Of a stretch of DNA of 36,749 bases, positions 28,385 to 36,749 are shown piece after piece. The notes beneath the pieces are model-generated. The model saw only the letters and a list, made by a program, of their open reading frames with translations. It did no database searches and was not told the DNA's origin. Positions within the stretch are counted from its first letter, which is position 1, and every line of letters starts with the position of its first letter. Origin of the DNA: Endomicrobium sp. (GTDB lineage Bacteria > Elusimicrobiota > Endomicrobiia > Endomicrobiales > Endomicrobiaceae); assembly GCA_031272265.1 (NCBI GenBank), contig JAISUD010000024.1, positions 1 to 36,749 on the forward strand, given 5' to 3'. The position numbers and the translations under genes were made by a program.

Positions 28385-28457
28385 CAAATTTAAAGGATAA
28401 TATATTTTGTTTAAAATATGTATGTAGTTGAATTATAGTATAGGGAGAGAACTAGAT

Positions 28458-30836
28458 ATGGGTAAAGAATTTTATGCGCGTGTTTCAAAAACTGGAGAGA
28501 AGCAACTTTTAAAAGATCATCTGGAAGCTGTTGCAGAAATGGCGTCTAAAAATGCAGATAAGATAGGACTTAAAATTACAGGCGAATATATAGGATTAAG
28601 GCATGATAACGGGAAATATCAGAAGGATTTCCAAGAATATGTTCTAGATAAAAATAAAAAATCAAAGAGAGGAGATATAGATCATTCAACAGCAGGTGCT
28701 CAAATTTCTAGAGATTTTTTTATAGAAAGTGCGGGTGAATGTGACAAAATAAAAAAATTTATAGCAGAGATAGTACCGCTTTGTATAGCCTCTCATCACA
28801 GCGGTCTTATTGATATGCTAGACATTGAAGGGGAAAACAAATTTTGCAAAAGAATGACAAAGGAAGAGGGTGTATTTAAAAGAGAAGTATTGGAAAATAT
28901 GGATCCTGAAATAAGGGACAAGATAAAAAAAACAGATATTGAAAAATTAACATCTGAAGTTAAAAGTACTATTGAAAGAATAAGGGAACTAGAGAGCAGT
29001 AAACTTATTAAGCAATTTTATTTAGGAATGATTGCAAAATTTTTGTTGAGTTGCCTTATAGATGCGGATCATACAAACAGTGCAGATTTTGAACTTGGCG
29101 CTAAAGCGCATTTAAGACAAAATAATGAATATGTTTGCTGGAATGTTATTTCAGAGAGATTAGAGAAGCACGTAAAAGAATTGAATATAAGAAATGAGTC
29201 TGCCGTAGAAGTTAAACAAATGAGGAAGAAAATATCAGACGATTGCTTTAACGCCGGCAAAACTTTTGCCAAAGGTTGTTACAAACTTGAAGTTCCGACA
29301 GGTGGGGGCAAGACGCTTGCAAGTTTTCGTTTTGCAGTAGAAATGGCAAAACGGCATTCCTTTGACAGAATAATATATTGTATTCCTTATACCACTATTA
29401 TTGAACAAAACGCTGATACTGTAAGAAAAATAGTAGAAAAGTGCGAGAAAGGTCGGATTGTTATTGAACATCACTCAAATTTGATACACAAAAATAAAAC
29501 AGAAGAAGAGATTGATCAAAATGATATTCTGACTGAAAATTGGGATGCTCGTATAATTTTTACTACAAATGTCCAATTTTTAGAAACTCTATTCGGAGGG
29601 AAAACAAGCAATACTAGACGTTTACACCAGTTAGCTAATTCGGTAATAATTTTTGACGAAATACAGACTTTGCCGATTAAGTGCGTTCATATGTTCAATA
29701 ATGCTGTAAATTTCTTAGTTGACTTTTGTGGTTCTAGTGTCGTTCTATGTACTGCTACACAGCCTTTGTTGGACGGTGTTTGTGAAGATAAAGGAAAATT
29801 AAAAATAGGCGCTGATATAGTTAAAAATAAAAGTTTAATATTTGACAGATTAGAACGGGTTGAAATTATAAATAAATATAAGAATTCCTGTACAAACAAC
29901 GAAATTGCAGAAAAGGCTGTAACCCTTGCAAATGAAAATGATAATTGTTTGGTTGTATGCAATACTACAAAATCAGCAAAAGAAGTTTTTGAGAAAATCC
30001 AGAATAATCAAGTTCAGAAGACATACTACCTTAGTGCGCGGATGATTCCTATTCATAGAAAATGGATTTTAAGGCAGATAAAAAGAGATTTAAATAACAA
30101 GAAGAAAATAATAGTTGTTTCCACCCAAGTTATAGAAGCAGGTATTGATATTGATTTTAATTGTGGTATTCGTGCATTAGCAGGTTTGGACTCAATTTTT
30201 CAGGCGGCAGGAAGGATAAATAGAAATGGTAACCTCTCTGATAAAGGAAAACTTTATGTTTATAACTTTGAGGAAGAAAACATACAATGGTTAAAGGATA
30301 TATATGAAGGTAAAAAAAGCAGTGAAATCGTCTTGTCAAAAAGTTCAGACACTGTTATATCTACTAAAATCATGGATGAGTATTATGAGGATTATTTTTA
30401 TCAGAGAAAAAAGGAGATGCAATATTTATGTGAGCACGAAAATAGTCTACTTGACCTATTGTCTGAGAATTCTAAATACAAAAAACAGGATCTGTATTTA
30501 AAGCAGTCATTTAAAAAAGCGGCAGAGATTTTTAAACCTATAGATAATCTTACAAAAGCGGTTTGTTTATGTAAGGGTAAAGCAAGGAGAATTATAAGTA
30601 AACTAGATAAATCTAATGAAACGTTAGGTTTCTCAGAAAAACATAAGCTTATAAAAGAGTTACAAAAGTATAGTTTAAATATATATTGTGAGCAATTTGA
30701 GCGATTTAAGAATATTAAAGCAATTGATAAAGTTTCAAATAGTTTAGAAATTTTTTATTTAGACAAATATTATTATGATAATAATTTTGGCATTACTGAA
30801 GAGGCTACACTGGATAAAGGAGGTACAAATGTCTGA
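28458..30836 (+). CDS. cas3: CRISPR-associated helicase/nuclease Cas3 (type I-C)
   Basis: 792-aa effector that is recruited by Cascade to unwind and degrade target DNA. The N-terminal HD nuclease has His49-Asp50 in LRHDNGKYQKDF, then DHSTAGAQ and ASHHSGL. The SF2 helicase follows: Walker A TGGGKT (281-286), DEIQ box FDEIQTLP (Asp400, Glu401), VSTQVIEAGIDIDF and QAAGRINRNG. I choose ATG 28458 because AGGGAG at 28442-28447 precedes it by 10 nt; a TTG at 28428 is possible. The reading frame is intact over its whole length, and the end overlaps cas5c by 8 nt. Confidence 0.96.
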   Translation: MGKEFYARVSKTGEKQLLKDHLEAVAEMASKNADKIGLKITGEYIGLRHDNGKYQKDFQEYVLDKNKKSKRGDIDHSTAGAQISRDFFIESAGECDKIKKFIAEIVPLCIASHHSGLIDMLDIEGENKFCKRMTKEEGVFKREVLENMDPEIRDKIKKTDIEKLTSEVKSTIERIRELESSKLIKQFYLGMIAKFLLSCLIDADHTNSADFELGAKAHLRQNNEYVCWNVISERLEKHVKELNIRNESAVEVKQMRKKISDDCFNAGKTFAKGCYKLEVPTGGGKTLASFRFAVEMAKRHSFDRIIYCIPYTTIIEQNADTVRKIVEKCEKGRIVIEHHSNLIHKNKTEEEIDQNDILTENWDARIIFTTNVQFLETLFGGKTSNTRRLHQLANSVIIFDEIQTLPIKCVHMFNNAVNFLVDFCGSSVVLCTATQPLLDGVCEDKGKLKIGADIVKNKSLIFDRLERVEIINKYKNSCTNNEIAEKAVTLANENDNCLVVCNTTKSAKEVFEKIQNNQVQKTYYLSARMIPIHRKWILRQIKRDLNNKKKIIVVSTQVIEAGIDIDFNCGIRALAGLDSIFQAAGRINRNGNLSDKGKLYVYNFEEENIQWLKDIYEGKKSSEIVLSKSSDTVISTKIMDEYYEDYFYQRKKEMQYLCEHENSLLDLLSENSKYKKQDLYLKQSFKKAAEIFKPIDNLTKAVCLCKGKARRIISKLDKSNETLGFSEKHKLIKELQKYSLNIYCEQFERFKNIKAIDKVSNSLEIFYLDKYYYDNNFGITEEATLDKGGTNV

Positions 30837-31578
30837 TACGCCAAAAAACACAATAGAATTTAAGGTGTGTGGTAAGTATGCGCTATTTACAGATCCTATC
30901 ACAAAATTAGGAGGAGAAAAATGCTCATATCAGATTCCTACTTATGAGGCTATCAAGGGGATTATAAAGTCTATTTATTGGAAGCCGACTTTCATTTGGA
31001 TTGTGGATGAAGTGCGTGTTATGAAAAGTATTGAAATGGAATCAAAAGGAATTCGGACAATAAAATATTATGACGGAAAAGCAGGGTTATATTTTTACAC
31101 ATATTTAAAAAATGTTGAGTACCAAGTAAGGGCTCACTTTGAATGGAACTGTTTTAAAAATGAACTTAAAGAGGATAGAAATGACGGGAAACATTTTGCT
31201 ATTGCGAATCGTTCTATTGAAAGAGGAGGAAGACAAGATATTTTCTTAGGAACAAGAGAATGTCAGGGCTATGTAGAACGTTGTGAATTTAATACCGGGC
31301 AAGGGTTTTATGACCGCCACCGTGTATCTGAATTGTCATTTGGAATGATGTTTCACAGTTTTGGGTATCCAAATGAAATAGGTGAAGATAAATTAGAAGC
31401 TAGATTGTGGAACGCGAAAATGAATAAAGGAATTATTAATTTTAAAGAGATTAAAGAGAAAGATATAAAAAGATATGTTAAATCTATGAAGCGGACTGAT
31501 TATGTAATAGATAAGGACATTTTAAGTGTTGATAAAGAGTATAAAAACATGTTTATAAATGAGAGAGGGACTTTATGA
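30829..31578 (+). CDS. cas5c: Cas5c (Cas5d), pre-crRNA processing subunit
   Basis: 249-aa RAMP protein of the type I-C Cascade. In this subtype there is no Cas6, and Cas5c cuts pre-crRNA within the repeat and holds the 5' handle. Family segments: IEFKVCGKYALFTDPITK at the N-terminus, SYQIPTYEAIKGIIKSIYWK, and GTRECQGYVERCEF with the Cas5c-typical end region. ATG 30829 follows AAAGGAGG at 30816-30823, a strong ribosome-binding site, so the longer frame from 30775 is rejected. It overlaps cas3 by 8 nt and cas8c by 4 nt (ATGA). Confidence 0.95.
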   Translation: MSDTPKNTIEFKVCGKYALFTDPITKLGGEKCSYQIPTYEAIKGIIKSIYWKPTFIWIVDEVRVMKSIEMESKGIRTIKYYDGKAGLYFYTYLKNVEYQVRAHFEWNCFKNELKEDRNDGKHFAIANRSIERGGRQDIFLGTRECQGYVERCEFNTGQGFYDRHRVSELSFGMMFHSFGYPNEIGEDKLEARLWNAKMNKGIINFKEIKEKDIKRYVKSMKRTDYVIDKDILSVDKEYKNMFINERGTL

Positions 31579-33527
31579 GTTGGTTTCAGAGGTTGTATGA
31601 AACTTATGAGAATTGTAGAGAGGCTTCAAAAACGGCTGGATATGAATTTGCTCCGGTTGCTCACACTCATAAAAATATTAATATTGAGATACAATTGGAT
31701 GAAAACTCTGAAATGATTAAGGCTGAAGTTATTACTAACGAGAAAGAGAAATATACAGTAATACCTACGATAGACGATAACGATTGTAGGTGGGCGCTTG
31801 CCGTTAATATAAAGACTTATTTAAAAGAAAAAAAACCTTATCAGAAGCAGTTACAGAAGTGGGCTGATTTTGATAAAAATAATAAAAATAATATAAAAAT
31901 AGCAATAGTGAATAAATATATACAAAGTGATAAGCTTATAGAAGATTTAATTCAAAAAAAAATATTGAAAGGTGAAGGAAAGACATTAATAGAACCTAAA
32001 GATAAAAAAGAAAAAGATGAATGTCCAATTTTTAAATCTATAAATAGTCAACAAGGTCAAAAAGATGCTTTCATTAGATGGGTAGTGGTAGTTGGTAAGG
32101 ACAAAAATGGAAAAGCATGGAAAACATGGGAAGATGATGAAATTATAAAATCATGGCAAAATTTTAGATATAAAGTAGAGAAAGAAAAAAATGGTAGTTC
32201 GGGATTATGTTATGTTTTGGGTAAAAGTGATACATTTCTAACAACAAAACATCCTTTTGCTGATGCTACAGCAAAACTTATTTCGTCGGAGGACAAAAAG
32301 AATTTTGTATTTAATGGGAGGTTTTCAACTAAGGAGGAAGTAGTTGGCATTAGTTATGAAGTTACTCAGAAAGCTCATAATACGCTTAGATGGCTTATGT
32401 TAAAAGAAAGAAATCAAGCATATTATAATAAGGAACAGAAATTTGTTGCGTGGAATATTAGTGCAACGGATTTACCTAAAATAGGTATCAGTTCGGACGA
32501 ACTTATAGGGAATAATGAGATTTCGAGCGATGTAGGTCAAATAGGGGATAATGAGATTTCGAGCGATGTAGGTCAAATTTTTGGTGCTAAGTTAGCAAAT
32601 AAGATAAGAGGTTACAAGGAAAAGCTTAAACCTGACGATAGGTCTGTAATTATAGGAATAGACGGAGCAAGTCCTGGTAGAAAAGCTGTAATATATTATA
32701 GAGAGATCATAGGCTCTGAATTTTTGGATAATATTGAAAATTGGCATAAAAAATACGCTTGGAAGCAGTATATATTAGGTGAAAATAAAAACCAAAAATA
32801 TAGGTGTTTTTTCGGTGCACCGTCAATAGATACAATAGCTAAAATGTATTTTTATAGGAAGGACACATATAGTATTGGAAAAAATGAGGATAGAATAAAA
32901 AAAAGAATAATAAAAGAATTAGTTCAAAGTATTGTAGAAAAAAAGAATATTCCCAAGTATATAGAGGAAAAATTTATTAGAAAAGCTTCTAATCCTGTTG
33001 CTTTAAACTATGAACAACGGAAAACAGTGTTAAGTATAGCCTGCTCTATATACAAAGGAAATAATAAGTATAAGGAGGAGGATTATAAAATGTGTCTTGA
33101 TTATGAAAATAAGGACAGGAATTATCTTTACGGTAGATTATTAGCTGTAATTCATAAGGGAGAGTATAGTGTATTAAGAAAAAGAGTAGGTGAATCACAG
33201 ACAAAGACACAAGATGAAGAAGAATCAAAATCTATTCGTCAAACTAAAGCACAAAGGCTAATGAAACGTTTTTCAAGCAAGCCTTTTGATACTTGGAGAT
33301 ATTTATATGAAAGCTTTAATAGTGCTTACAGCAGTAGAATAAAAGGGAATTGGGTTGAAAATAAGATTAAAAGTATAGTTGCTTTAAATCCAGAGGGATT
33401 AAAGGGTAACTCTAAGTTAACAGGAGAATATTTGCTTGGATACTTTTGTCAATTAAGGGAACTTGATTACAATCCTGAAAAAAATTTAAAGGAGATAAAA
33501 AATGGATGTATTAAGCAAAAAGATTGA
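31575..33527 (+). CDS. cas8c: Cas8c, large subunit of type I-C Cascade
   Basis: 650-aa protein that recognises the PAM and helps open the target in type I-C Cascade. Family features: MSWFQRLYETYENC at the N-terminus, then VAHTHKNINIEIQLDENSEM, NGRFSTKEEVVGISYEVTQK, AHNTLRWL, and the C-terminal CLDYENKDRNYLYGRLLAVI. The ATG overlaps the cas5c stop (ATGA). Two oddities: a 36-nt exact-period tandem duplication gives the 12-residue unit GNNEISSDVGQI twice (residues 312-335), and an internal start at codon 506 probably makes Cas11c. cas7c overlaps the last 26 nt. Confidence 0.95.
   Translation: MSWFQRLYETYENCREASKTAGYEFAPVAHTHKNINIEIQLDENSEMIKAEVITNEKEKYTVIPTIDDNDCRWALAVNIKTYLKEKKPYQKQLQKWADFDKNNKNNIKIAIVNKYIQSDKLIEDLIQKKILKGEGKTLIEPKDKKEKDECPIFKSINSQQGQKDAFIRWVVVVGKDKNGKAWKTWEDDEIIKSWQNFRYKVEKEKNGSSGLCYVLGKSDTFLTTKHPFADATAKLISSEDKKNFVFNGRFSTKEEVVGISYEVTQKAHNTLRWLMLKERNQAYYNKEQKFVAWNISATDLPKIGISSDELIGNNEISSDVGQIGDNEISSDVGQIFGAKLANKIRGYKEKLKPDDRSVIIGIDGASPGRKAVIYYREIIGSEFLDNIENWHKKYAWKQYILGENKNQKYRCFFGAPSIDTIAKMYFYRKDTYSIGKNEDRIKKRIIKELVQSIVEKKNIPKYIEEKFIRKASNPVALNYEQRKTVLSIACSIYKGNNKYKEEDYKMCLDYENKDRNYLYGRLLAVIHKGEYSVLRKRVGESQTKTQDEEESKSIRQTKAQRLMKRFSSKPFDTWRYLYESFNSAYSSRIKGNWVENKIKSIVALNPEGLKGNSKLTGEYLLGYFCQLRELDYNPEKNLKEIKNGCIKQKD
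32508..32579 (+). repeat. In-frame 36-nt tandem duplication in cas8c
   Basis: Unit 1 is 32508-32543 and unit 2 is 32544-32579. They differ at two positions only: A to G in the second codon (Asn to Asp) and the last base. The period of 36 nt keeps the frame and adds 12 residues. The near identity suggests a recent event. Confidence 0.95.
33090..33527 (+). CDS. cas11c: Cas11c small subunit, translated from inside cas8c
   Basis: A second translation start lies inside cas8c in the same frame. AAGGAGGAGG at 33072-33081 is followed by ATG 33090, with 8 nt between the second AGGAGG and the ATG. This is among the strongest Shine-Dalgarno sequences in the window, and it sits inside an open gene. The product would be the last 145 residues of Cas8c, beginning MCLDYENKDRNYLYGRLLAV. 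In other type I-C systems the small subunit Cas11c is known to be made this way from the C-terminal part of Cas8c, starting just before the CLD...YxLGRLxAV block, and it lines the Cascade backbone. The assignment is from position plus ribosome-binding site; protein evidence is needed. Confidence 0.75.
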   Translation: MCLDYENKDRNYLYGRLLAVIHKGEYSVLRKRVGESQTKTQDEEESKSIRQTKAQRLMKRFSSKPFDTWRYLYESFNSAYSSRIKGNWVENKIKSIVALNPEGLKGNSKLTGEYLLGYFCQLRELDYNPEKNLKEIKNGCIKQKD

Positions 33528-34383
33528 TTTTGCCGTAATATTTAAAGTCAAAAACGCAAACCCTAATGGAGATCCTTTAGGTGAAAATATGCCAAGGACC
33601 GATAATGACGATTTAGGAGAAGTTACAGACGTTTGCATTAAAAGGAAGATAAGAAATAGGCTCTTAGACTTGGGAGAAGAGATTCTTGTTCAATCAAATG
33701 ATTATAAAAAAGACGGTTATTCTTCTATAAAGGAAAGGCTTGAAAATATTAATGATCTAAAAAAAAAGGGCAAAGAAAAGTGTGAATATGATGTAGAAAA
33801 GGTATGTGAGAAATTTTTTGATGTTCGTGCCTTTGGACAAGTAATTGCATGGGATAATTGTTCAATAGGTATTAGGGGACCTGTTACAATTCAATCGGCT
33901 TTTAGCGCGGAGCAGGTAGAAATTGTTGGTAAACAAATCACAAAAAGCGTTAATAATGAAGATGGAAATAAGAAAGGTTCTGATACTATGGGAATGAAGT
34001 ATTGTGTAAAGTATGGAGTGTATGTTTTTAAAGGAGCAATGAATCCTCAATTAGCTGAAAAAACAAAGTTTAGTGATGAAGATGCGGAAAAGATAAAATC
34101 TGTTTTACCAAAATTGTTTGATAATGACGCTTCTTCTGCAAGACCGGAAGGCAGTATGGAAGTATTGGAAGTTGTTTGGTGGGAACATAGTTCAAAATCA
34201 GGACAATATTCGTCAGCAGAAGTTCACCGTTCGTTAGAGGTTGTCAATAATGAAAAAATAATTTTAAAAAAACTGGAAGGTTTACATACTGAGAGATGGA
34301 ATTTAGAAAATAAGGAATATAAGGAATATGTAGTGACAAAAGAGAAAGAAGAGATAGATATATCTAAGTATAAAAGAGGATAA
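33502..34383 (+). CDS. cas7c: Cas7c (Csd2 type), Cascade backbone subunit
   Basis: 293-aa RAMP protein that polymerises along the crRNA spacer. Csd2/Cas7 features are visible: FAVIFKVKNANPNGDPLGEN, then PRTDNDDLGEVTDVCIKRKI, DVRAFGQVI, GIRGPVTIQSAFS, MGMKYCVKYGVYVFKGAMN and LEVVWWEHSSKSGQYSSAEV. AAAGGAG at 33488-33494 precedes ATG 33502. It overlaps cas8c by 26 nt and ends 7 nt before cas4. Confidence 0.96.
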   Translation: MDVLSKKIDFAVIFKVKNANPNGDPLGENMPRTDNDDLGEVTDVCIKRKIRNRLLDLGEEILVQSNDYKKDGYSSIKERLENINDLKKKGKEKCEYDVEKVCEKFFDVRAFGQVIAWDNCSIGIRGPVTIQSAFSAEQVEIVGKQITKSVNNEDGNKKGSDTMGMKYCVKYGVYVFKGAMNPQLAEKTKFSDEDAEKIKSVLPKLFDNDASSARPEGSMEVLEVVWWEHSSKSGQYSSAEVHRSLEVVNNEKIILKKLEGLHTERWNLENKEYKEYVVTKEKEEIDISKYKRG

Positions 34384-34390
34384 AAATTAA

Positions 34391-35026
34391 ATGTATTCTG
34401 AGGATGATTTACTTCCGTTAACAGGTTTGCAAAATATGCTTTATTGTAAAAGAAGGTGTGCTTTGAAACATATTGAACAAGCGTGGGCTGATAATTTTTT
34501 TACAGCTAAAGGAAGTGTCATGCACGATAAAGTTCATAAAGAAAAAAGCGAATATAGAAAAGGTGTAATTATAGAGCGCAGTGTTTTTATTAGATCTTAT
34601 AAACTGGGATTGAAAGGCAAAAGCGATGTTGTAGAATTTCATAAATCAGGAGATAAATTTATTCCATTTCCTGTTGAATATAAAAGCGGTAGAGCAAAAG
34701 CTGATAATACGGATAAAGTTCAGCTTTGCGCACAGGCTATGTGTTTTGAAGAAATGATGAATGTTAAAATAGAAGATGGCGCAATATTTTATGGAAAGAC
34801 CAGGAACCGTTTAAATGTTAAACTTGACGAATCTTTAAGGGAAGAAACTTCTTATCTTGCACAGGAGTTTCATAGTTTAGTTGATATTGGGAAAACTCCA
34901 AAAGAAGAATATTCTAAAAAGTGCGATAATTGTTCTTTAAAGGAGTTGTGTTTGCCTGAAATATTTACGAAAAAATCTGTAAAAAAATACTTAGCAGAAA
35001 TTATAAACGATGAAAAAGCTATTTAA
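34391..35026 (+). CDS. cas4: Cas4 family nuclease for prespacer processing
   Basis: 211-aa iron-sulfur nuclease that trims prespacers and secures PAM-correct orientation with Cas1-Cas2. Cluster ligands are Cys19 in MLYCKRRC and Cys178, Cys181 and Cys187 in KKCDNCSLKELC. The PD-(D/E)xK core is Asp79 in KSDVVEF and Glu96-x-Lys98 in VEYKSG. ATG 34391 is 7 nt after cas7c. The last 17 nt overlap cas1. Confidence 0.96.
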   Translation: MYSEDDLLPLTGLQNMLYCKRRCALKHIEQAWADNFFTAKGSVMHDKVHKEKSEYRKGVIIERSVFIRSYKLGLKGKSDVVEFHKSGDKFIPFPVEYKSGRAKADNTDKVQLCAQAMCFEEMMNVKIEDGAIFYGKTRNRLNVKLDESLREETSYLAQEFHSLVDIGKTPKEEYSKKCDNCSLKELCLPEIFTKKSVKKYLAEIINDEKAI

Positions 35027-36044
35027 TACGCTTTACATATCTACACAGGGAACCTATGTATCAAAAGAGCGTGAAAATATCGTTGTCAGTGTGCAGGGTA
35101 AAGAGTTATTTAGAGCGCCGATTCATTTGATTAGTTCAATAATTTGTTTTGGAAATGTTATGTGTTCGCCGTTTCTTTTGGGATTGTGTGCTGAAAATAA
35201 TGTTTTTGTAAGTTACTTAACTGAATACGGTAAATTTATTGCAAGAGTCCAATCTCCCATTTCAGGTAATGTTCTTCTAAGGAGACGACAATATAAATGT
35301 GCGGATGACGAGAGTTTTTGTTTAGAAACATCTAAATCATTTTTGCTTGGGAAATTGAATAATTCAAGGACTGTAATTAATAGGGGATTGAGAGATCATG
35401 GCGATAAAATATCTAGTTCCGATAGGTTAATTCAAGTTTCTGTTAGCTTGCGTAAATCAATGGATAGCATTATAAAGGCAGGCGATGTAGATGTGCTGCG
35501 TGGGGTGGAGGGAGACGCCGCGAGTTCTTATTTTAATGTGCTTGATGATCTTATATTAAAACAAAAAGAAAAGTTTTTTATGAGAGAAAGAAATAGACGT
35601 CCTCCAAAAGATAGAGTAAATTGCCTTCTTTCCTTTGTGTATACTTTGTTGGTGCACGATATTACTTCAGCATTAGAAGGAGTTGGTTTAGATCCGCAAG
35701 TTGGATTTTTGCATAAAGATAGACCGGGCAGACCAAGTTTAACTTTAGATATAATGGAAGAATTTAGGCCTTTTATAGCTGAAAGATTAGTTCTTACTTT
35801 GATAAATTTATCCCAAATTGACGCTGACGGCTTTTCAGAATCTCCAAGTGGCGGAATTTTAATGAGAGACGAAAGTAGAAAAATTGTTATAGACGCGTAT
35901 AGAAAGAGAAAGGAAGAAGAAATATTTCACCCTTTTTTAAAAGAGTCTATGCGTGTTGGTCTTTTGTATCATGCGCAGGCGTTGATTTTTGCTAGATTTT
36001 TAAGGGGAGATATTGACGCATATCCGCCTTTTATTTGGAAATAG
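35010..36044 (+). CDS. cas1: Cas1 integrase (type I-C)
   Basis: 344-aa integrase that, with Cas2, inserts new spacers at the leader end of the array. Metal-binding positions are Glu167 in GVEGDAAS, His235 in GFLHKDRPGRPSL and Asp247 in TLDIMEEFRP. The N-terminus MKKLFNTLYISTQGTYVSKE is typical of the I-C branch. The frame is intact. It starts inside the end of cas4 and stops 14 nt before the duplicated cas2 start. Confidence 0.97.
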   Translation: MKKLFNTLYISTQGTYVSKERENIVVSVQGKELFRAPIHLISSIICFGNVMCSPFLLGLCAENNVFVSYLTEYGKFIARVQSPISGNVLLRRRQYKCADDESFCLETSKSFLLGKLNNSRTVINRGLRDHGDKISSSDRLIQVSVSLRKSMDSIIKAGDVDVLRGVEGDAASSYFNVLDDLILKQKEKFFMRERNRRPPKDRVNCLLSFVYTLLVHDITSALEGVGLDPQVGFLHKDRPGRPSLTLDIMEEFRPFIAERLVLTLINLSQIDADGFSESPSGGILMRDESRKIVIDAYRKRKEEEIFHPFLKESMRVGLLYHAQALIFARFLRGDIDAYPPFIWK

Positions 36045-36444
36045 GATAAAAAAACATTATGCTGGTTTAGTAAGTTATGACATAAACACTGTTAACAGTG
36101 AGGGAGCGAGATGTTTAAGGAATGTTTCTAAAATATGTTTAGATTATGGACAAAGAGTTCAGTTTTCAGTATTTGAATGTGAAGTTGATCCTACTCAATG
36201 GGTTTTTTTGAAAGATAAACTGTTAAGTAATATAGATTTTAAAGAGGATAAAACAACACTATGCTGGTTTTAGTAAGTTATGACATAAATACTGTTGACA
36301 GTGAGGGAACAAGACGCTTAAGGAATGTTTCTAAAATATGTTTAGATTATGGACAAAGAGTTCAGTTTTCAGTATTTGTCTGTGAAGTTGATCCTACTCA
36401 ATGGGTTTTTTTGAAAGATAAACTGTTAAGTAATATAGATTTTA
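36040..36444 (+). repeat. Tandem duplication of the 5' part of cas2
   Basis: Two adjacent copies of about 200 nt: 36040-36240 and 36241-36444, with a period of 202-203 nt. By hand I count about a dozen substitutions plus a one-base T deletion in the first copy (GGTTTAG against GGTTTTAG). The copied unit starts just upstream of the cas2 start and ends two thirds through the gene. Confidence 0.92.
36059..36260 (+). pseudogene. cas2: Truncated upstream copy of cas2
   Basis: The first copy opens ATG CTG GTT TAG because one T is missing, so its own start leads to a stop after three codons. Beyond that, the cas2 frame continues as LVSYDINTVNSEGARCLRN to LLSNIDF, then the second copy begins, so the C-terminal third is missing. 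A TTG at 36013 inside cas1 would allow a hybrid 86-aa reading, but there is no ribosome-binding site for it. The conserved Arg of RRLRN has become Cys (RCLRN), as expected of decay. Confidence 0.85.
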
Positions 36445-36551
36445 AAAGGGATAGTATTAGGTTTTATATGCTTGGCTCAAATTGGAAAGGGAAAATAGAG
36501 CATTATGGTTGCAAAGAACCACTAGATTTACACAGCACATTAATAGTGTAG
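36261..36551 (+). CDS. cas2: Cas2 (type I-C), intact copy
   Basis: 96-aa Cas2, which dimerises between two Cas1 dimers as the scaffold of the spacer-acquisition complex. MLVLVSYDINTVDSEGTRRL, GQRVQFSVF and SIRFYMLGSNWK with the end KIEHYG match type I-C Cas2. The first-strand Asp (SYDI) is present. It is the downstream, full-length member of the duplication. One peculiarity is FVCEVD, where the upstream copy keeps FECEVD. The CRISPR leader follows. Confidence 0.95.
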   Translation: MLVLVSYDINTVDSEGTRRLRNVSKICLDYGQRVQFSVFVCEVDPTQWVFLKDKLLSNIDFKRDSIRFYMLGSNWKGKIEHYGCKEPLDLHSTLIV

Positions 36552-36739
36552 AAAAGACATATATTTTTTTATAAAATTTATTTAATGCGAATGTTATGTG
36601 ATTTATAAGTATTAAGATATTTCGCATATTGAAAAATGAATGAAAAAGTTAAAAAGTGTGTAATTTTATTTAAAAAAATATGAAGAATCGCAAAAGTTGT
36701 GTAAAATGTGTTGAATTTATAAGTAGTTTTTGTTGTTCT
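36552..36739 (+). promoter_or_regulatory. CRISPR leader
   Basis: 188 nt of very AT-rich non-coding DNA between cas2 and the first repeat, the usual place and character of a type I-C leader. It should hold the array promoter; TATAAG at 36718-36723 is a possible -10, but no good -35 is seen at the right distance. Cas1-Cas2 would integrate new spacers at its right end. Confidence 0.75.
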
Positions 36740-36749
36740 GTCGCGCCCC
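36740..36749 (+). CRISPR. Start of the first type I-C CRISPR repeat (cut by window end)
   Basis: The last ten bases are GTCGCGCCCC. Type I-C repeats are about 32 nt, begin GTCGC followed by a C-rich stem arm, and end in GTGGATTGAAA-type sequence. The match, in the right orientation directly behind the cas2 leader, indicates the array starts here and continues outside the window. No spacer is visible. Confidence 0.75.

Follow-up and report, generated by a model that had tools for sequence, protein, structure and literature searches.

A partial tandem duplication of cas2 in the type I-C CRISPR operon of an Endomicrobiellum-like bacterium

The cas2c gene of Leptospira interrogans serovar Lai (LA0683), which belongs to a type I-C CRISPR system, carries a natural deletion of 1 nt according to the corresponding report (PMC9510766). 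The same study attributes the main dimer contacts of the Leptospira Cas2C protein to strands b4 and b5, and presents residues Y7, D8, R33 and F39 as important for the DNase activity of Cas2. In the lineage of termite-gut endosymbionts, CRISPR systems are patchy (15 metagenome-assembled genomes, MAGs, in PMC11257099). No closer precedent for a tandem duplication or a frameshift of cas2 in symbionts was found in the PMC literature. The locus described here combines both features: a truncated and frameshifted copy of a type I-C cas2 lies directly upstream of a complete one.

The window, i.e. the whole stretch of 36,749 nucleotides that was analysed, is contig C7 of an Endomicrobiellum-like MAG (698,591 bases, 30 contigs, estimated 60.5% complete). 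A complete operon with the gene order cas3-cas5c-cas8c-cas7-cas4-cas1-cas2 fills its last 8.3 kb. Its assignment to type I-C is based on this full gene order and on the adjoining leader and partial repeat, most of the matching family models being I-C-specific (NCBIfam). Among genomes that carry the same genes, its nearest relatives are Endomicrobiellum and Endomicrobium MAGs, and several of these come from flagellates of the termite gut. The genes upstream of cas2 and the elements downstream of it are as follows.

28428-30836, + strand: cas3, single open frame (Cas3 HD and core models, Pfam/NCBIfam)
30775-31578, + strand: cas5c, single open frame (Cas5d, TIGR01876)
31575-33527, + strand: cas8c/csd1, single open frame (Csd1, TIGR01863)
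33502-34383, + strand: cas7/csd2, single open frame (Csd2, TIGR02589)
34391-35026, + strand: cas4, single open frame (Cas4, TIGR00372)
35010-36044, + strand: cas1, single open frame (Cas1c, TIGR03640)
36560-36739, + strand: CRISPR leader region, resembling the sequence that separates cas2 from the array in sister genomes
36740-36749, + strand: beginning of the first CRISPR repeat (10 nt), where the contig ends

The array proper lies outside the assembled sequence, probably between C7 and another contig of the same genome, C26, which starts with a full repeat (GTCGCGCCCCATGCGGGCGCGTGAATTGAAAT) followed by no further repeats; the start of C26 probably marks the other end of this array. Past this apparent array end (locus L045, 841-2389), a DNA methyltransferase-like gene is accompanied by a neighbouring ORF, a putative restriction enzyme on the basis of motif and position only. 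Two other contigs carry CRISPR elements. The short contig C17 (L090, 784-3435) encodes a second CRISPR system, in which a complete type II-like Cas2 accompanies a Cas1 and the C-terminal part of a Cas9-like protein. On contig C23 (L039), positions 75-170 are 85% identical to the window leader (36611-36707) and have no repeat adjoining them, which suggests an orphan leader or the remnant of a second array. Within the operon itself, cas8c contains an in-frame tandem duplication of 36 nt at 32505-32578 (GNNEISSDVGQI/GDNEISSDVGQI). This duplication is absent from the sister genomes G024 and G298, and the cas8c gene of G300 carries an internal duplication of its own, distinct from this one, at the same variable loop.

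The first-pass annotation of this DNA had proposed that a unit of about 203 nt, covering the first two thirds of cas2, is present twice next to the array, with about a dozen differences between the copies. Both repeat finders recovered it: Tandem Repeats Finder reported a repeat at 36039-36453 (period 203, 2.0 copies, 93% match), and an ungapped repeat finder paired 36066-36250 with 36269-36453 (185 nt, 95%) and 36039-36068 with 36241-36270 (30 nt, 90%). Such a repeat is far beyond chance, and no second tandem array of about this size exists elsewhere in the window. The duplicated unit corresponds to the end of cas1 followed by cas2 codons 1 to about 63, and is organized as follows.

36039-36241, + strand: copy 1 of the unit, a short 5' stretch and cas2 codons 1 to about 63 (repeat finders, alignment)
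36013-36273, + strand: open frame of 86 aa running through copy 1 (ORF list)
36232-36260, + strand: duplication junction together with the 5' stretch of copy 2 (comparison of the parental ends)
36261-36551, + strand: copy 2, complete cas2 of 96 aa (PF09827, E 6e-25; TIGR01573; AlphaFold2)

The count of differences was likewise correct: over 183 aligned coding columns the copies differ by eight substitutions and one deletion, to which three differences in the short 5' stretch and two at the junction codon are added. The parental ends have in common AAA, then two mismatched positions, then GGATA, a similarity that would fit either recombination over short homology or slippage during replication. 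Some of the junction bases are present at neither parental end, and the T that belongs to the cas1 stop codon in the cas1-end copy is replaced there by a G. The interval from the cas1 stop to the cas2 ATG (36045-36058) is about 6 nt longer than in sister genomes by virtue of an A-rich insertion, which is found in both copies and therefore predates the duplication.

Copy 1 had been described as dead because of a one-T deletion after the start, a lost Arg and a missing C-terminus, and each of these three lesions is present. The deletion of one T after codon 2 causes the ATG at 36059 to read ATG CTG GTT TAG (MLV-stop), making the copy untranslatable from this start. Comparison with outgroup genes reveals the substitutions D13N and R19C, the latter at a residue that is Arg in 41/41 I-C-like relatives (37 distinct sequences). 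Since the unit ends near codon 63 and never took in codons 64-96, copy 1 was truncated from birth; it lacks strands b4 (65-71) and b5 (79-83), as positioned on the predicted structure of copy 2. With no readable frame from its start codon through b5, copy 1 does not qualify as a functional cas2, even if 62 codons read in a different frame are still recognized by PF09827 (E 1.7e-17) and TIGR01573. The 86-aa frame has no ATG or GTG start, the only usual start upstream of its cas2-like part being the TTG at 36013, inside cas1, and its TAG stop (36271-36273) is located 13 nt inside copy 2. No promoter was detected inside copy 1 by a consensus scan of the + strand.

Copy 2 is full length, as previously stated, and matches the Cas2 models over its whole length (87.7 bits for a cut-off of 23.8 in Pfam, 59.8 for 24.5 in NCBIfam). 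The predicted fold is the ferredoxin-like b-a-b-b-a-b-b arrangement, b5 included (AlphaFold2, mean pLDDT 88.9), and the top PDB structure matches of this model are all Cas2. Y7, D8, R33 and F39, which occupy invariant alignment columns, are all kept. A search of the other contigs established that copy 2 is the sole full-length I-C cas2 of the assembly. It is nevertheless altered at an invariant site, a point absent from the first-pass annotation: relative to the outgroups, copy 2 has undergone one synonymous change and E40V (GAA to GTC, two adjacent bases). Position 40 is Glu in copy 1 and in 41/41 I-C relatives (37 distinct sequences), so that copy 2 departs from the SVFE motif of this group, a motif that is an observed regularity and not a published criterion. 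Each copy has thus lost a different invariant residue, R19 in copy 1 and E40 in copy 2. A single sequencing error does not explain E40V, which is a two-base change. The type II-like Cas2 of contig C17 also has V (GTC) at codon 40, but a gene conversion from it was considered and rejected, as no flank is shared beyond the codon. Outside the I-C group, distant Cas2 proteins have M, W, S or V at this position; a loss of Cas2 function does not, for this reason, automatically follow from E40V, and the substitution may be tolerated. The question raised is what keeps Glu40 constant in the SVFE strand of I-C Cas2, and no role for this residue was found in the literature covered.

The duplication is restricted to the present genome among those compared. 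With a threshold of E <= 1e-12 applied to 341 genomes of the phylum, an I-C-like cas2 was detected in 16, with two matches in this genome alone and a single one in the other 15. No second cas2 remnant adjoining cas2 was seen in 27 related loci; a weak match in L032 (31 residues, E 0.002), on the other strand and 1.4 kb off, was taken as chance. On this sampling the duplication is lineage-specific. In a tree with outgroups, the two copies are sisters with 99% support, on branches of 0.027 (copy 1) and 0.022 (copy 2) compared with 0.246 for the branch joining the pair to other species. The duplication therefore postdates the separation from all the species sampled without being brand new, in agreement with the earlier proposal. 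The view that the first copy is the one that has been drifting is not sustained: the branches are nearly equal and the changes polarised by the outgroups are about evenly split (deletion, D13N and R19C in copy 1, E40V and one synonymous change in copy 2), codon 17 differing from the outgroups in both copies and codon 10 being ambiguous. An origin of one copy as a diverged allele acquired from a different lineage was rejected, the copies being each other's closest relatives. Between them, dN is 0.032 and dS 0.105 (ratio about 0.3, from eight substitutions only), whereas species compared with one another give a ratio of about 0.07-0.2; this is a hint, and no more, that constraint has been weaker since the duplication. 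The copies have exact runs of 61 and 63 nt in common; taken as a possible sign of gene conversion between the copies, the clustering of the differences that leaves these two long identical runs has a post hoc P of 0.017.

The cas1 stop is followed after 14 nt by the dead ATG of copy 1 and after 216 nt by the ATG of copy 2, whereas cas2 starts 8, 9, 8 and 9 nt past the cas1 stop in four related genomes (L011-L014); the lengthening of the cas1-cas2 gap noted at first reading is thereby established. A purine-rich AAGAGG is located 13 nt upstream of the copy 2 ATG, a spacing longer than the 5-8 nt of the relatives. The accompanying suggestion that coupling to cas1 was lost and Cas2 dosage altered is plausible, and Cas2 output may have changed. 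Because the copy 1 frame ends 13 nt inside copy 2, a newly formed duplication could have kept a coupling chain from cas1 through copy 1 to copy 2, which would then have been cut by the 1-nt deletion rather than by the duplication.

These observations can be assembled into one scenario, to which, taken as a whole, about an even chance is given: an ordinary tandem-duplication relic in an adaptation module that may be decaying. In one Endomicrobiellum lineage, the last cas1 bases and the first two thirds of cas2 would have been duplicated in tandem by way of short homology. Copy 1 would now be a non-functional relic, acting only as an untranslated spacer of about 200 nt, and this part of the scenario is strong. 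Cas2 would be made from copy 2 by its own weak ribosome-binding site, uncoupled from cas1 translation. Selection on spacer acquisition would have been relaxed in this lineage, leaving adaptation reduced or lost and the interference genes open, which is the weakest step. In favor of this scenario are the repeat structure, the MLV-stop of copy 1, the 216-nt gap, the sister position of the copies with near-equal branches, the losses of R19 and E40, both conserved in 41/41 I-C relatives, the dN/dS of about 0.3, the single cas2 of the other genomes and loci compared and the precedents for decay of I-C cas genes. Against it, cas1, cas4, cas7, cas8c, cas5 and cas3 are all open, distant Cas2 proteins vary at position 40, and the window Cas1 deviates at only three otherwise-invariant columns (F178L, D258E and L326I, all mild) and Cas4 at none, which is unlike long neglect. 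A tentative but serious alternative, somewhat less probable, is one in which copy 1 is equally inert and the system works fully, E40V being tolerated and the copy 2 protein supporting normal spacer acquisition. The four retained residues, the intact predicted fold, the non-Glu residues of distant lineages and the open operon are what would be expected from it; the universal Glu40 of the I-C relatives, the two base substitutions taken by E40V and the lost proximity to cas1 are harder to reconcile with it.

Two other explanations concern the duplication itself and copy 1. A false joining of two strain alleles, with the tandem present in no cell, would be understandable in a fragmented and partial metagenome-derived assembly whose contig ends only 200 nt further on, in the array, all the more so with the exact runs common to both copies. 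These runs of 61-63 nt are short, however, for the usual long-k assembly settings, which exceed them. An artefact would also have to supply junction bases that are absent from both parental ends, including the G for the T of the cas1 stop, and an allele with that G next to cas1 would be without a cas1 stop. Since the G is tolerable only once the stretch is no longer the end of cas1, real evolution after a real duplication is favored and an assembly artefact is unlikely. That copy 1 is expressed, giving an N-terminal piece of Cas2 able to bind Cas1-Cas2 or modulate it, is less probable still. It could be argued from the 86 open codons and from the nuclease activity in vitro of the truncated I-C Cas2 of Leptospira Lai, devoid of b4-b5 (PMC9510766). 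Yet the only usual start is the TTG located within cas1, translation from the native ATG would stop after three codons, the dimer-forming strands are missing and R19C is present; an open frame is moreover expected without selection, so few mutations having accumulated since the duplication. That such a fragment, if still made, associates with the E40V protein and partly compensates or tunes it, the integrase complex then containing a Cas2 of split or mixed make-up, is the most improbable idea of all. The preferred reading remains that of a duplication relic, which is otherwise an ordinary tandem-duplication pseudogene; its significance would be that of one minor stage in what may be the decay of a CRISPR adaptation module in a termite-gut endosymbiont lineage.

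Compared with the described systems, the window shares with Leptospira Lai an I-C cas2 disabled by a single-base deletion, with a product devoid of b4-b5, and the presence of a second CRISPR type in the same bacterium. Leptospira Lai differs by its single cas2 without tandem copy and its locus without array, whereas the window has a full-length second copy and a repeat. The type I-C Cas2 and Cas4-Cas1-Cas2 of Bacillus halodurans (PDB 4es1, 8d3l; PMC6519985) belong to the same family and operon type and match the whole of copy 2, but here too cas2 is single. The sister Endomicrobiellum genomes (G024/L011 'agilis' TA26, G298/L013, G296/L012 DS12 and G300) have the same gene order, leader and kind of I-C repeat, with Cas2 proteins 75-83% identical to copy 2; unlike the window, they have a single cas2 with Glu40, starting 8-9 nt past the cas1 stop (measured in L011-L014). 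Among them, DS12 has retained cas4-cas1-cas2 together with an array in which at least 24 repeats are present. Its cas7 is only about 30% identical to that of the window, and beyond the array cas5 is found as pieces in several frames (L012, 3-626 and 4441-4778), so that its I-C effector part seems rearranged or decayed. The decay of I-C cas genes has a precedent both in the cas2 deletion of Leptospira Lai and in the fragmented cas5 of DS12.
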